This document shows, piece after piece, positions 31,900-37,122 of a stretch of DNA of 37,122 nucleotides (its first letter is position 1; every line of letters starts with the position of its first letter). The stretch is from contig JAJTGC010000034.1 in assembly GCA_021298975.1 (NCBI GenBank), forward strand, positions 1 through 37,122, written 5' to 3'. The position numbers were made by a program, and so were the translations under genes. A model generated the notes under the pieces. That model was not told the origin of the DNA. It saw only the letters and a list, made by a program, of their open reading frames with translations, and did not search any database. The DNA comes from Oxalobacteraceae bacterium (GTDB lineage Bacteria; Pseudomonadota; Gammaproteobacteria; Burkholderiales; Burkholderiaceae_D).

Positions 31900-31932
31900 A
31901 GGACTTATCTGGGAAAGAGTAGGGAAAGCAGG

Positions 31933-31938
31933 ATTATA
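31933..31938 (-). promoter_or_regulatory. Candidate -10 box of folD
   Basis: A perfect TATAAT on the minus strand is about 34 nt upstream of the folD ATG. The -35 region has no clear match. Confidence 0.4.
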
Positions 31939-32070
31939 AGGCGACCCCGCTTTGATGCCGGGCAAAGTCCTTGTGTTCCTGCAGCAGCGGCAAGTCAACC
32001 AGCGCTAGAGTGAGCCCCTTGCTGATTTTCTGCCAAGAATATTCCACATTATGAAATCAAATACCGTATT

Positions 32071-32098
32071 TTGAAAATTGAGGAAGTGCTGATAAACT
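32071..32098 (+). promoter_or_regulatory. Candidate promoter of the pyruvate dehydrogenase operon
   Basis: TTGAAA (32071-32076) and TAAACT (32093-32098) are 16 nt apart in an AT-rich segment, 93 nt upstream of aceE. The ATG itself is preceded by a clear AAGGAG (32178-32183). No PdhR-like operator was recognised. Confidence 0.5.
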
Positions 32099-32191
32099 TC
32101 CGTTCTGATCCAAAGGCGTACAAAATCTGATGTAGCCTGACCCTGGCCGTCCAATGCAGACTGGCCTCCACACAATGAAGGAGACTTCCTC

Positions 32192-34894
32192 ATGGCAGCG
32201 CAAATCGACACTATCCTGGCGCAGGCCGCCAATGACCCTGATGTGATGGAAACACAGGAATGGCTAGACGCCCTCGAAGCCGTTCTCGATCACGAAGGTC
32301 CCGAGCGCGCGCATTACCTGCTCGAGCGCATGGTCGACCTGGCCCGCCGCCGTGGCGCGCACATTCCCTTCTCAAGCAATACCGCCTACGTCAATACCAT
32401 TCCGGCTCATCTGGGTGAGCACTGCCCGGGCAATCTCGAATATGAAGAGCGACTGCGTTCTTATATGCGCTGGAACGCCATGGCGATGGTGGTCAAGGCC
32501 AATCGCGCCGATGGTGATTTGGGTGGCCATATTTCCAGCTTCGCTTCGCTGGCCAACATGCTGGGTATTGGCTTCAATCATTTCTGGCATGCGCCGACCG
32601 AGCATCACGGCGGCGATCTGCTGTACATCCAGGGGCATTCATCGCCCGGCATCTACGCTCGCGCCTTTCTGGAAGGTCGTATCAGCGAAGATCAAATGCT
32701 CAATTTCCGTCGCGAAGTCGATGGCAAGGGCTTATCGTCTTATCCCCACCCCAAGCTGATGCCGGATTTCTGGCAGTTCCCGACGGTCTCCATGGGTCTG
32801 GGCCCGCTGATGGCGATCTATCAGGCGCGGTTTCTCAAGTATCTGCATGCACGCCAGATTGCTGATACCGCCAATCGCAAGGTCTGGGCGTTCTGTGGTG
32901 ACGGCGAGATGGATGAACCGGAATCGATGGGCGCCATTGGCATGGCTGGTCGTGAAATGCTCGATAACCTCGTTTTCGTCATCAATTGCAATCTGCAGCG
33001 TCTGGATGGCCCGGTGCGCGGTAACGGCAAGATCATTCAGGAACTCGAAGCCGATTTCCGCGGTGCGGGCTGGAATGTGGTCAAAGTCATCTGGGGCGGT
33101 AACTGGGATGATCTGCTCGCCCGTGACAAGGACGGCGTTTTGCAGCGGATCATGATGGAAACCGTCGACGGCGAGTACCAAAACTACAAAGCCAAAGACG
33201 GTGCTTATGTGCGCAAGCATTTCTTCGGCAAGGATCCCAAGGCGCTGGAGCTGGTCGCAAATATGTCGGACGACGATATCTGGCGTCTGCTGCGCGGGGG
33301 TCATGATCCGCACAAGATTTACGCGGCTTACAAAGACGCACAGGAACACAAAGGTCAGCCAACTGTTTTGCTGGTCAAGACCGTCAAAGGTTATGGCATG
33401 GGCAAATCCGGCGAGGCCCGCAATACCGCCCACCAGACCAAAAAACTGGATGATGTTGCCATTCGCGAGATGCGCGACCGCTTCGGCATTCCGATTCCCG
33501 ACGATCAGTTGCATGACGTGCCCTTTTACAAGCCGGCTGACGATGCGCCCGAGATGAAATACCTGCATGAGCGCCGCAAGCAGCTCGGCGGTTATCTGCC
33601 GCAGCGCCGCCGCAAGGCAGATGACATGCTTGCGGTACCTGAGCTGTCAGCATTTCAGGCAATGCTCGATGCCACCGCAGAGGGCCGTGAAATCTCGACC
33701 ACGCAGGCGTATGTTCGCTTCCTTACTGTCTTGTTGCGGGATGCTGGCCTGGGTCCACGAGTGGTACCCATTCTTGTTGATGAGGCGCGGACATTTGGCA
33801 TGGAAGGTTTCTTCCGTCAGATTGGTATCTTCAGCCAGCAGGGGCAGTTGTATGAGCCGGTCGACAAAGATCAGGTCAGCTACTACCGTGAAGACAAGGC
33901 CGGACAGATACTGCAAGAGGGTATCAACGAAGCAGGTGCGATGAGCTCCTGGATTGCTGCGGCGACTTCCTACTCGACCAATAACCGGGCGATGATCCCG
34001 TTTTATATTTTCTATTCAATGTTTGGCATGCAGCGCATCGGCGATCTTGCGTGGGCTGCTGGCGACATGCGTGCGCGCGGCTTCCTGCTCGGCGGAACCT
34101 CAGGCCGTACCACGCTCAATGGTGAAGGTTTGCAGCATGAGGACGGTCACAGTCATGTGATGGCCTCCACCATTCCGAACTGCATGCCCTACGACCCCAC
34201 GTTTTCGCATGAACTCGCCGTCATCATGCACGATGGACTCAAGCGCATGATCGAAAAGCAGGAAGATGTGTTTTATTACATCACCCTGATGAATGAAAAC
34301 TACAGCCATCCGGGTCTCAAGCCGGGTCAGGAAGAGGGCATTCTGAAAGGCATGTATCTCTTGCAGTCGTCGGCAGTAAAAAAAGCCAAGCAGCGCGTAC
34401 AGCTCATGGGTTCAGGCACCATCTTGCGTGAAGTAATTGCTGCTGCTGAATTGCTCGAAAAAGACTGGGATGTGGCGGCGGATATCTGGTCGGCACCGTC
34501 GTTCACCTTGCTCGCGCGTGATGGACAGGATGCCGAGCGCTGGAATCTGCTCAACCCCACCGCGAAAAAACCGCGCACGCCCTTTGTCACGCAATCGCTG
34601 CAGAGCAGTTCAGGCCCAGTTATTGCTGCCACTGACTACATGCGCACTTACGCCGAGCAAATTCGCCCGTTCATGCCGGCAGGTCGCACGTACAAGGTCT
34701 TGGGTACCGATGGTTTTGGCCGATCGGACACCCGTGCAAAATTGCGCGAGTTCTTTGAGGTTAATCGGTATTTCGTCACCGTGGCGGCACTCAAGGCGCT
34801 CGCTGATGCCGGCAGTATTGACGCCTCGGTGGTTGCAAAGGCGATTGAAAAATACGGACTGGATCCAAACAAACCTAATCCAGTCAGTATGTAA
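32192..34894 (+). CDS. aceE: Pyruvate dehydrogenase E1 component, homodimeric type
   Basis: A 900-residue thiamine diphosphate enzyme that decarboxylates pyruvate and reductively acetylates the lipoyl group of E2. The length fits homodimeric E1 (E. coli 887). Visible motifs are IPFSSNTAYVNTIP near residue 55, YIQGHSSPGIYARAFLEGR near 145, the TPP motif GDGEMDEPES at 236-245 with its downstream Asn, the HQTKKLDD stretch and HEDGHSHVMASTIPNC in the middle third. The C-terminal domain includes VLGTDGFGRSDTR. The first ~40 residues are the segment that in E. coli contacts the E2 subunit-binding domain. It is the first gene of the PDH operon. Confidence 0.97.
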   Translation: MAAQIDTILAQAANDPDVMETQEWLDALEAVLDHEGPERAHYLLERMVDLARRRGAHIPFSSNTAYVNTIPAHLGEHCPGNLEYEERLRSYMRWNAMAMVVKANRADGDLGGHISSFASLANMLGIGFNHFWHAPTEHHGGDLLYIQGHSSPGIYARAFLEGRISEDQMLNFRREVDGKGLSSYPHPKLMPDFWQFPTVSMGLGPLMAIYQARFLKYLHARQIADTANRKVWAFCGDGEMDEPESMGAIGMAGREMLDNLVFVINCNLQRLDGPVRGNGKIIQELEADFRGAGWNVVKVIWGGNWDDLLARDKDGVLQRIMMETVDGEYQNYKAKDGAYVRKHFFGKDPKALELVANMSDDDIWRLLRGGHDPHKIYAAYKDAQEHKGQPTVLLVKTVKGYGMGKSGEARNTAHQTKKLDDVAIREMRDRFGIPIPDDQLHDVPFYKPADDAPEMKYLHERRKQLGGYLPQRRRKADDMLAVPELSAFQAMLDATAEGREISTTQAYVRFLTVLLRDAGLGPRVVPILVDEARTFGMEGFFRQIGIFSQQGQLYEPVDKDQVSYYREDKAGQILQEGINEAGAMSSWIAAATSYSTNNRAMIPFYIFYSMFGMQRIGDLAWAAGDMRARGFLLGGTSGRTTLNGEGLQHEDGHSHVMASTIPNCMPYDPTFSHELAVIMHDGLKRMIEKQEDVFYYITLMNENYSHPGLKPGQEEGILKGMYLLQSSAVKKAKQRVQLMGSGTILREVIAAAELLEKDWDVAADIWSAPSFTLLARDGQDAERWNLLNPTAKKPRTPFVTQSLQSSSGPVIAATDYMRTYAEQIRPFMPAGRTYKVLGTDGFGRSDTRAKLREFFEVNRYFVTVAALKALADAGSIDASVVAKAIEKYGLDPNKPNPVSM

Positions 34895-34999
34895 GAAATC
34901 AGTATCAAATTTTTGATTTCACAGAAAAAGAGTGGTTGAAAATAAAAGTCTGCGCTGAATTTTTACGCCACCGAATGAGTCGCACCAAAAAAATAAAAC

Positions 35000-35005
35000 G
35001 GGGGG
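35000..35005 (+). promoter_or_regulatory. G-rich ribosome binding site of the lipoyl-like gene
   Basis: A run of six G (35000-35005) lies 4 nt before the ATG at 35010. It is an unusually G-rich, strong anti-SD match, which argues that this gene is actively translated. Confidence 0.6.
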
Positions 35006-35009
35006 ATAT

Positions 35010-35528
35010 ATGCGGCTGTTTGAAATCAAAATGCCGGAGCTGGGGAATGTTGGCGAAGTTATCGTGACCGAGGTGCTGATTCAACCCAATCAGCATGTCG
35101 CCCTTGATCAGCCCATGATCACCGTCGAGACCGATATGGCAACCATGCAAATACCGAGTCCGAGATCAGCTGTCGTACACGAAATCAAGACCAGCGCAGG
35201 TGCCGCGCTCGTCGCAGGATCGCTGCTCGTGGTGTTGCGCGAGGCGACGGCCGATGATCTGGTTGCTACCGAGTTGGTTTCGGTAAAGGTGCCCGTGATT
35301 GGAGATTTTCGCAATCTCATCTCGCTCAAGGTGATTGAATTGCTGGTGCGTGTGGGTGACGAAGTTCAGCGCGGGCAGGCGCTGGTCACGTTGGAAGCGG
35401 ATGAATTTCTCGTCGAGGTGCCGAGTGAATACACCGGTATCGTGCGCGAGATGAAGGTAAAACTGCGCGACCGGGTTACGCCGGGCGCGGTCATTCTGAT
35501 GATCGAAGAAACGCAGGACGCTGCATAA
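35010..35528 (+). CDS. Tandem lipoyl-like domain protein lacking both lipoylation lysines
   Basis: A 172-residue protein made of two biotinyl/lipoyl-type domains (about residues 1-78 and 90-168) joined by a short linker, with no subunit-binding or catalytic domain. In aceF the lipoylated Lys43 sits in the turn ESDKASMEIP. Here domain 1 has ETDMATMQIP, with Met43 in its place, and domain 2 has EADEFLVEVP, with Glu132. Domain 2 is otherwise close to the aceF lipoyl domain (GDF...VIELLV...GD), with a 3-residue insertion near residues 101-107. Domain 1 has also lost conserved glycines, for example PGD to PNQ. Frame intact, strong ribosome binding site, between aceE and aceF. It cannot carry lipoate at the normal sites. 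A structural, docking or regulatory role in the PDH complex is inferred; decay of a duplicated E2 domain is the alternative. Confidence 0.85.
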   Translation: MRLFEIKMPELGNVGEVIVTEVLIQPNQHVALDQPMITVETDMATMQIPSPRSAVVHEIKTSAGAALVAGSLLVVLREATADDLVATELVSVKVPVIGDFRNLISLKVIELLVRVGDEVQRGQALVTLEADEFLVEVPSEYTGIVREMKVKLRDRVTPGAVILMIEETQDAA

Positions 35529-35603
35529 ACAAGGCAGTTTTCTGATCAGCCAGTGATCTCACCGGCAATTGTTTACAAAAAATAGGAAAAACGGAGCGAC
35601 AAC

Positions 35604-36944
35604 ATGAGTCAAGTAGAAATCAAAGTGCCTGACATCGGCGACTTCAAGGAAGTCGAAGTGATCGAGTTGCTCGTCAAGCCGGGCGATACCGTCAAGGCAG
35701 AACAGTCGTTGATTACGGTGGAATCCGACAAGGCCAGTATGGAAATTCCCAGTAGCCATGCTGGCGTAGTCAGGGAATTGAAAATAAAGATTGGTGACAA
35801 GGTCGCCGAAGGCTCGCTGATTCTGATGCTTGACGCAGATAGTGCGGATACTGCAGTCGCTGCAGTAACAGCGGCGCCACCTTCGCAAACGGTATCCGTA
35901 CCAGCCCCGGCACCAGCAGCGGCGCCTGCACCCGCCCCCCAGCCAGCACCAACACCGGCACTGCAGGCGGTATCAATACCCCCGACAGCCAACTCGGCGG
36001 CAACTGACAATGGCAATGGACAAAAACCACATGCCTCGCCATCGGTGCGCAAATTCGCGCGCGAACTGGGCGTTGAACTCTTGCGGGTCACTGGCTCGGG
36101 CCCCAAAGGCAGAATACTGCTCGACGATGTGCAGGGTTTTGTCAAAGGCGTCATGACAGGCAGCAGCGCTGCGCCTGCGGCCAGCAGCGGTGGTGGTGGC
36201 ATGGGCATGTCGCTGTTGCCGTGGCCATCGCTGGACTTCAGCAAATTCGGTGACACGGAATTGCAGCCGCTCTCGCGCATCAAGAAAATCAGCGGCCCGA
36301 ATTTGCATCGCAACTGGGTCATGATCCCCCATGTGACGCAGTTCGATGAGGCCGACATTACCGAGCTCGAAGAATTCCGCAAGAGCGCCAACGAATCGCT
36401 GGCGAAATCCGGCGTCAAGCTCACCATGCTGGCTTTTGTGATCAAGGCCAGTGTTTCAGCCCTTAAAAAATTCCCAGCCTTTAATGCGTCACTGGATGCT
36501 AACGGCGAAAACCTGATTCTCAAGCACTACTACCACATTGGTTTTGCAGCCGACACACCGAACGGTCTGGTGGTACCCGTCGTGAAAAATGCCGATAAAA
36601 AAGGTATTGCCGAGATTGCCAAAGAAATGGCAGAGCTCTCGGCACAGGCGCGCGAGGGCAAACTCAAGCCGGCCGATATGCAGGGTGCCAGCTTCACGAT
36701 TTCATCGCTCGGTGGCATTGGCGGTACCAAGTTCACGCCCATTATCAATGCCCCTGAAGTGGCGATTCTCGGCTTGTCGAAGTCAGCCATTCAGCCGGTC
36801 TGGGATGGCAAGCAGTTCGCACCGCGTCTGATCATGCCGCTGTCGTTGTCATATGACCACCGTGTGGTTGATGGCGCCATGGGTGCGCGGTTCATCGTCC
36901 ATCTCGGTGACGTGCTGGCGGATATGCGCAAGACTTTGCTGTAA
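35604..36944 (+). CDS. aceF: Dihydrolipoamide acetyltransferase (E2), single lipoyl domain
   Basis: A 446-residue E2 protein that transfers the acetyl group from lipoate to CoA and forms the core of the PDH complex. Domains in order: one lipoyl domain (1-80, Lys43 in SDKAS intact); an Ala/Pro linker (about 88-140); a peripheral subunit-binding domain (144-180, PSVRKFARELGVELLRVTGSGPKGRILLDDV); a Gly/Ser hinge; and the catalytic domain (about 215-446) with His419 and Asp423 in YDHRVVDGA. E. coli AceF has three lipoyl domains and Ralstonia-type E2 often two, so a single one is at the low end. GGAG precedes the ATG. It lies 75 nt after the tandem lipoyl-like gene. Confidence 0.96.
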   Translation: MSQVEIKVPDIGDFKEVEVIELLVKPGDTVKAEQSLITVESDKASMEIPSSHAGVVRELKIKIGDKVAEGSLILMLDADSADTAVAAVTAAPPSQTVSVPAPAPAAAPAPAPQPAPTPALQAVSIPPTANSAATDNGNGQKPHASPSVRKFARELGVELLRVTGSGPKGRILLDDVQGFVKGVMTGSSAAPAASSGGGGMGMSLLPWPSLDFSKFGDTELQPLSRIKKISGPNLHRNWVMIPHVTQFDEADITELEEFRKSANESLAKSGVKLTMLAFVIKASVSALKKFPAFNASLDANGENLILKHYYHIGFAADTPNGLVVPVVKNADKKGIAEIAKEMAELSAQAREGKLKPADMQGASFTISSLGGIGGTKFTPIINAPEVAILGLSKSAIQPVWDGKQFAPRLIMPLSLSYDHRVVDGAMGARFIVHLGDVLADMRKTLL

Positions 36945-37047
36945 GCCGCCCGAACTGGGCTTAGCCGCAGGTGCAGAGTTCGATAAAAGCTCGGCGCTGC
37001 CTCGCCGTGTGATCAGTTTCGCCATGCAAAAATAACGGAGTACAGAC

Positions 37048-37122
37048 ATGAGCACGATAGAAATTCACGTTCCTGATATTGGCGACTTCAAGGAAGTCGA
37101 AATCATTGAGTTGCTGGTCAAA
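37048..37122 (+). CDS. lpdA: Dihydrolipoyl dehydrogenase (E3) with N-terminal lipoyl domain, 5' end only
   Basis: Only 25 codons are in the window. They encode the start of a lipoyl domain, STIEIHVPDIGDFKEVEIIE, almost the same as the aceF start. Preceded by CGGAG at a good distance. In Burkholderiales and Neisseria the PDH cluster continues with an E3 that carries an N-terminal lipoyl domain, so lpdA is the likely identity. A second E2-type protein is possible, since the flavoprotein domain is not visible. Confidence 0.75.
   Translation, partial: MSTIEIHVPDIGDFKEVEIIELLVK

Follow-up and report, generated by a model that had tools for sequence, protein, structure and literature searches.

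Lipoyl domains in and around the pyruvate dehydrogenase complex

Human E3BP, an accessory component of the pyruvate dehydrogenase (PDH) complex, carries one lipoyl domain (PMC7448341), and the account in PMC10156792 gives E3BP a subunit-binding domain and a core-binding part. The N-terminus of multi-lipoyl E2 proteins, such as E. coli AceF (7b9k), holds lipoyl domains in a row. LbpA of sulfur oxidation, as presented in PMC6067878, has the lipoyl fold, binds lipoate and is encoded beside the enzyme that it serves. PDH operons may also house other genes: PMC5777263 describes BPH, a proteasome homolog, in the PDH operon of Cupriavidus metallidurans.

How lipoyl domains dock has been described for several partners. 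According to PMC6270654, the beta1-beta2 loop and the residues adjoining the lysine matter for E1 recognition, and the NMR results given in that source for the E. coli didomain show little or no interaction between E3 and the lipoyl domain. In PMC8421416, the contacts of the E. coli lipoyl domain with the catalytic domain of E2 are made by D213, D217, E218, E220, E242, D244 and M248. Lipoyl domains are studied as swinging arms. The locus described here keeps two of them, beside the genes they most resemble, after the arms have been removed. It lies in a window of 37,122 nucleotides, the whole of one contig (C24) of an Oxalobacteraceae assembly of 2.69 Mb in 131 contigs that is 88.6% complete (G000).

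A tandem lipoyl-type protein without attachment lysines

The tandem gene is an open reading frame at 35010..35528 on the + strand, with an ATG start, zero internal stops and 172 codons for amino acids; orthologs and dN/dS values also mark it as a gene. Its product has a mass of 18.7 kDa, a predicted pI of 4.6 and no cysteine. Pfam finds Biotin_lipoyl (PF00364) in two stretches with an E-value of 3.9e-27. Domain 1 (residues 1-80, 35010..35249, +) has its match at residues 5-76 and is further documented by a residue table, and domain 2 (residues 89-172, 35274..35525, +) has its match at 35283-35504; a structural model covers both. Frame and Pfam thus agree with an earlier note on this DNA, which had read two lipoyl-type domains in one intact frame of the PDH operon.

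The same note had claimed that both lipoyl lysines are replaced, and the codons bear this out. At the lipoyl-lysine site, domain 1 has Met43 (ATG, 35136..35138, +) and domain 2 has Glu132 (GAA, 35403..35405, +); AceF, encoded downstream, keeps its lipoyl lysine K43 (codon 35730-35732). The only lysines of the tandem protein are residues 7, 60, 93, 107, 149 and 151, and neither beta-turn has one. The protein therefore shows the PF00364 family membership and the fold of a functional lipoyl carrier and lacks the beta-turn lysine. In biotin carrier protein (BCCP) the biotinylated lysine sits in this same turn, so the tandem protein does not qualify as a BCCP either.

Other family tests give a similar picture. 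The E2 model TIGR01348 scores 125.1 bits on the tandem protein, against a cut-off of 552.1, which sets it apart from E2 acyltransferases. Pfam finds neither the E3-binding domain (PF02817) nor the acyltransferase domain (PF00198), both of which are present in aceF, and without PF02817 the protein lacks the peripheral subunit-binding domain of a PDHX-type E3-binding protein. The NqrA and RnfC barrel-sandwich families, which have a related fold, give weak Pfam scores, with no stretch passing alone. Inspection of the sequence by eye shows no signal peptide and no adaptor hairpin.

Both domains are predicted to fold normally. An AlphaFold2 (AF2) model built from 26 sequences has a mean pLDDT of 84.7, six longer strands per domain, and a linker and tail of low confidence. 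Both lysine-site residues sit in the beta-turn: strands 35-40 and 45-49 flank residue 43, and strands 124-130 and 133-138 flank residue 132. The pTM of 0.47 leaves the mutual arrangement of the two domains unfixed by the model. Ranked by E-value, the best Foldseek hits are biotin carboxylase and 2-oxoacid dehydrogenase chains, headed by a propionyl-CoA carboxylase chain; for 1qjo, 1iyu and 1gjx, each a single lipoyl domain, the target TM is 0.82-0.84.

The PDH operon around the tandem gene

The tandem gene lies between the genes for E1 and E2 of the PDH complex. Upstream, aceE encodes an E1 of 900 aa (32192..34894, +; NCBIfam TIGR00759, 1459.6 bits against a cut-off of 859.9). Downstream, aceF encodes an E2 of 446 aa (35604..36944, +; TIGR01348, 622.9 bits against 552.1), in which Pfam finds one normal lipoyl domain, the E3-binding domain and the catalytic domain. 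The lpdA gene, for an E3 with an N-terminal lipoyl domain, begins at 37049..37122 (+) and is cut by the contig end after its first 25 codons. The contig thus ends inside the lpdA lipoyl domain (37049-37122), which resembles that of aceF, perhaps as an assembly break at a repeat.

The aceE stop is followed by 115 nt before the tandem gene, and 75 nt separate the latter from the aceF start. Consensus matching on the + strand finds no terminator-like sequence from the aceE stop codon up to aceF; the single promoter-like match of that strand in 31900-37122 lies upstream of aceE, in a search whose promoter matches do not rise above those of shuffled sequence. A GGGGGG run (35000..35005, +), four bases before the ATG, resembles a ribosome binding site, and GGGGG stands a few bases 5' of the ATG in three orthologs as well. 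The earlier note had called this site strong: the run itself is there, and we rate it as a plausible ribosome binding site, not a strong one.

The machinery for lipoylation is present in the same bacteria. Both lipB and lipA score above their cut-offs in all seven genomes tested, the four carriers of the tandem gene included, so the missing lysines are not explained by a loss of lipoate. In G000 the two genes stand together on a different contig from the PDH operon, and the rest of that genome yielded no additional lipoyl domain of PDH type.

Comparison with normal lipoyl domains

A profile collected 154 lipoyl-domain rows from the fetched loci, 12 of which are tandem domains; after trimmed repeats were collapsed by their cores, the other 142 gave 100 distinct comparison domains. 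These are a selection and not a census, since the loci were picked for likeness to the tandem protein or because they belong to PDH operons in the genus, and domains of this kind also went into the profile. The lipoyl lysine is present in 100 of the 100, in 15 lipoyl domains of five further loci, and in 14 more that were read by eye. The beta1-beta2 loop has 8 residues in 97 comparison domains and 7 in the other 3, and it has 8 in domain 1. Domain 2 has 11 residues in this loop in all four copies, the result of a 3-residue insertion in the surface loop (residues 102-104 as aligned; 35313..35321, +) whose residues vary at one place.

The E2-contacting residues listed in PMC8421416, with D217 left out, were mapped by eye onto the 100 domains and the four tandem copies. 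By this mapping, E242 is E in all 100 and in both tandem domains, and D244 is D or E in all 100 and is likewise kept in both, as D or E in domain 1. At the D213 place, D stands in 97 of 100, E in domain 1, and V or F in domain 2. The E218 place has E or D in 76 of 100, E in domain 1 and S in domain 2; the E220 place has E or D in 85 of 100, I or V in domain 1 and K in domain 2; and the M248 place has M in 96 of 100, M in domain 1, and V or I in domain 2. As mapped, domain 1 appears to keep most of the E2-docking residues, and domain 2 appears to have lost several. Domain 2 also has Phe instead of Ala after the lysine site and has lost the Met at +3 and the DKA motif. The net charge of the tandem domains is -2 to -5, compared with -6 to -9 in 37 lipoyl domains from E2 and E3 proteins of the genus.

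Occurrence, selection and descent

The full-length tandem gene occurs in four of the 21 genus genomes examined (G000, G002, G013 and G018), in each case between aceE and aceF, so that encoding with PDH genes, as expected of an accessory subunit, is seen in all carriers. The earlier note had proposed a search for homologs with both lipoyl sites replaced in PDH operons, and these are the three further intact copies, 81-83% identical to the G000 protein. In 15 of the 21 genomes the aceE-aceF gap is assembled, measures 63-202 nt as cut, and has no tandem gene. G006 and G012 count neither as carriers nor as genomes without the gene, because contig ends cut their aceE.

Wider searches were made with a profile at an E-value of 1e-22 in the family (294 genomes) and order (399), and of 1e-20 in the class (369) and phylum (398); the samples overlap, each includes G000, and many genomes were scored on their best 8-12 first-look candidates only. 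Among these scored candidates no further free-standing tandem copy was found at any of the four ranks. The other matches listed lie in open frames of at least 447 residues, save for a frame of 308 residues that a contig end interrupts. In the family, order and class searches, those inspected proved to be ordinary E2 or E3 proteins that retain their lysines; in the phylum search, matches were inspected in six of the 23 genomes besides G000, one of which, G929, had come from the class sample. Two peptide patterns run against genome contigs matched only the three known relatives. In a plasmid search, all 59 matching records stay below 60% identity to the tandem protein, and of the best 10 of these, six fall on annotated aceF or lpdA genes and four on sequence without annotation. 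The tandem protein is thus known so far from one Oxalobacteraceae clade only.

Within this clade the tandem gene is under purifying selection. Across the four copies, pairwise dN/dS is 0.054-0.142 (NG86) and 0.05-0.17 over three estimators, and a codon bootstrap in the three pairs tried gives 0.065-0.220, with the 97.5% bound at most 0.22. Met43 (ATG throughout) and Glu132 are invariant in all four. The Glu132 codon is GAA in two copies and GAG in two, and this synonymous change argues that Glu is held as a residue. Domain 1 has 61-62 of 80 residues identical in five distant pairs and an NG86 dN/dS of 0.034-0.183 over six pairs. Domain 2, at 0.038-0.124, falls between domain 1 and the AceF lipoyl domain, which at 0.016-0.076 is more tightly held.

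Full-length copies at the same place in four of 21 genomes point to neither decay nor an error of a single assembly. The view of the earlier note that the gene is maintained and not decaying is thereby strengthened: its relatives are neither all frameshifted nor all without it, being intact in four and absent in 15; dN/dS stays well away from 1; and none of the separately assembled carrier genomes shows a lysine at either site. The tandem protein is probably a helper or a brake rather than the product of a broken gene.

Trees of aceE and aceF place the four carriers and G006 in one clade (100/100 in the protein and DNA trees). G006 falls inside the carriers, with support of 91/87 and 84/87, and the AU test rejects the four carriers as a group without it (p 0.0025). 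From this topology the tandem gene probably arose once, before the clade, and is either unassembled in G006 or lost from it. A domain tree of 98 out of 126 rows places both domains amid lipoyl domains of the PDH type, on stems of 2.18 and 1.34 with much shorter end branches. The nine outside domains of this tree were labelled by the author as 2-oxoglutarate, branched-chain or other types, and one of them, whose own branch is very long, was placed with the PDH-type domains; with short alignments and long branches, exact neighbours are unsure. Long stems with short end branches are as might be expected for a protein that changed its role and was then held.

The two domains share only 19 of 78 residues with each other, and the AceF lipoyl domain shares 33 of 80 with domain 1 and 37 of 78 with domain 2. 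Each being closer to the AceF domain than to the other suggests that either descends from a normal PDH lipoyl domain, and the place of the gene would be accounted for if the 5' end of aceF had been duplicated in part. An origin outside the PDH family is disfavoured by the domain tree, within the limits of its few columns and long branches. Base composition and the plasmid search give no sign of horizontal import: G+C and third-position G+C are the same as in aceE and aceF, and the plasmid matches all stay below 60% identity.

Neighbouring changes in the operon

Between aceF and lpdA lies a remnant of a deleted gene (36949..37032, +), the last 28 codons of a proteasome homolog, which match residues 162-189 of the complete G006 copy at 89% identity. 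Pfam assigns this gene type to Proteasome only (PF00227), and we take it to be BPH from how the protein begins and from where the gene stands in the operon, the latter as in PMC5777263. A complete copy stands between aceF and lpdA in nine of 17 genus genomes examined. The deletion junction of G000 is identical in G002 and G018, which conflicts with the aceE and aceF tree and suggests recombination within the PDH operon of the clade. The fourth carrier, G013 (L048, G013:C150, 5-460), combines the tandem gene with a BPH frame that stays open from residue 1 to residue 152, where the contig ends. A role of the tandem protein as a replacement for BPH was considered and rejected, since this carrier keeps its BPH frame; six non-carriers (G001, G005, G009, G016, G017 and G020), moreover, have no BPH match.

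AceE itself carries substitutions at positions 30, 32, 33 and 37 (residues 30-37, window 32279-32302) that are common to G000, G002, G006 and G013. They first seemed specific to the clade (3 clade rows vs 11), but G012, whose aceE is cut by a contig end, has three of the four, and co-evolution of E1 with the tandem protein is therefore kept as a lead only. The segment presumably corresponds to the E2-binding N-terminus of E. coli E1p. As given in PMC6270654, that E. coli region comprises residues 1-55. A second aceE-like E1 gene, 53-57% identical, is present in G004, G006, G008 and G010 (L087, L089, L090 and L091) and in part in G012.

Possible function and competing explanations

Taken together, the retained fold, the loss of both attachment sites, the selection on the gene and its constant position in the PDH operon point to a docking role without acyl transfer, for which the PDH complex is the most economical partner. 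The tandem protein may be a non-catalytic accessory subunit of lipoyl descent that occupies lipoyl-domain docking surfaces and holds or tempers the complex, a reading that we put forward tentatively and somewhat short of calling probable. The protein would be made together with the complex and would use the docking surfaces of true lipoyl domains while being unable to receive lipoate. Domain 1, which retains the methionine and the greater part of the acidic patch, could dock at the E2 catalytic entrance as a blank arm. Domain 2, with its enlarged E1-recognition loop and with docking acids that are in part missing or of opposite charge, would have another partner, E1 being the likeliest. Overall, either a subunit would be held in place, or reductive acetylation and transfer would fall through competition with the real arms. 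Because the protein is expected to be made with the core subunits, a standing accessory subunit is favoured over an on-demand switch. The earlier note had suggested that the protein may bind E1 or E3 and cap or tune the complex; judged by domain anatomy, E2 for domain 1 and E1 for domain 2 would be likelier partners than E3, for which this anatomy gives no support. Several points weigh against the accessory-subunit reading: domain 1 is under looser constraint than the AceF lipoyl domain, domain 2 has lost several E2-contact residues and has Phe in place of Ala, and carriers are four genomes of a single clade. A bolder form of the proposal, possible and yet rather doubtful, is a "blank arm" subunit with which the complex carries its own competitor, in which one domain would match the E2 entrance and the second, through its rebuilt loop, E1, so as to set or gate the step from pyruvate to acetyl-CoA without phosphorylation.

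Operon position alone does not prove partnership, as BPH shows: the pull-downs from Cupriavidus metallidurans described in PMC5777263 recovered no PDH subunit. An unrelated gene can evidently ride in a PDH operon, and the tandem protein might likewise be a scaffold or adaptor of lipoyl fold that acts outside the complex and shares only its transcript. Periplasmic adaptor proteins of the HlyD/AcrA type use non-lipoylated lipoyl-type domains for docking. Domain 2, which has lost docking residues and the DKA motif, would suit such a role, and Foldseek matches biotinyl and lipoyl carriers alike; however, by sequence the protein is nearest to PDH lipoyl domains, PDH docking residues persist in domain 1, and the signal peptide or hairpin of an adaptor was not seen by eye. 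We regard this explanation as conceivable, though on the unlikely side. Within the complex, a structural spacer or an assembly aid without catalytic effect, which might for example hold E1 during assembly, would fit both the expected co-expression with core subunits and two domains joined by a short linker of about 10 residues. Yet 15 relatives with a one-lipoyl-domain E2 do without it, most of them seen with a lipoyl-bearing E3, and such a role is unlikely.

A decoy or regulator of lipoylation would bind LipB, LipA or a lipoamidase and stay unmodified, and a kept lipoyl fold, absent attachment lysines and the presence of lipBA agree with that. These enzymes, however, act on the lysine turn, where domain 2 has lost the Ala after the site and the Met at +3, and the gene is encoded with PDH while lipB and lipA stand on another contig, all of which makes a decoy improbable. 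A slowly decaying, functionless duplicate of the aceF 5' end would account for the restriction to one clade and for the long stem branches. Intact frames in all carriers, low dN/dS, fixed Met43 and Glu132, and a conserved loop insertion speak so clearly against decay that we give it very little credence.

Comparison with known systems

The lipoyl-domain family is well known; on the features tested, the tandem protein fails as a lipoyl carrier, as an E2 and as an E3BP. In the open-licence literature searched, no described free-standing bacterial lipoyl-domain protein lacking the lysine and encoded in a PDH operon was found. If the protein acts on PDH, it would represent a bacterial, kinase-free tuning of a central metabolic gate. 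It would then also be a naturally occurring dominant-negative protein with which docking and acyl transfer could be told apart in 2-oxoacid dehydrogenase complexes.

Multi-lipoyl E2 proteins share with it the fold and the arrangement of two domains in a row, as in E. coli AceF and in a two-lipoyl E2 locus (L060), and the best PDB sequence match is 7b9k_A (E 4.9e-37, residues 4-169). Unlike them, the tandem protein is free-standing, has no E3-binding or catalytic domain, and has lost both lysines; its linker is short, whereas theirs are longer and often rich in Ala and Pro. HlyD/AcrA-type adaptors differ in architecture and location, and RND_mfp matches the tandem protein below threshold only. 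BPH is likewise an extra, non-PDH gene of the PDH operon, with an unrelated fold (PF00227) and a place after aceF, not before it. LbpA resembles the tandem protein in being a lipoyl-fold protein encoded beside its enzyme and differs in that it binds lipoate. E3BP/PDHX and fungal PX are, as the tandem protein may be, accessory and non-catalysing components of PDH; the subunit-binding domain of E3BP has no counterpart in the tandem protein.
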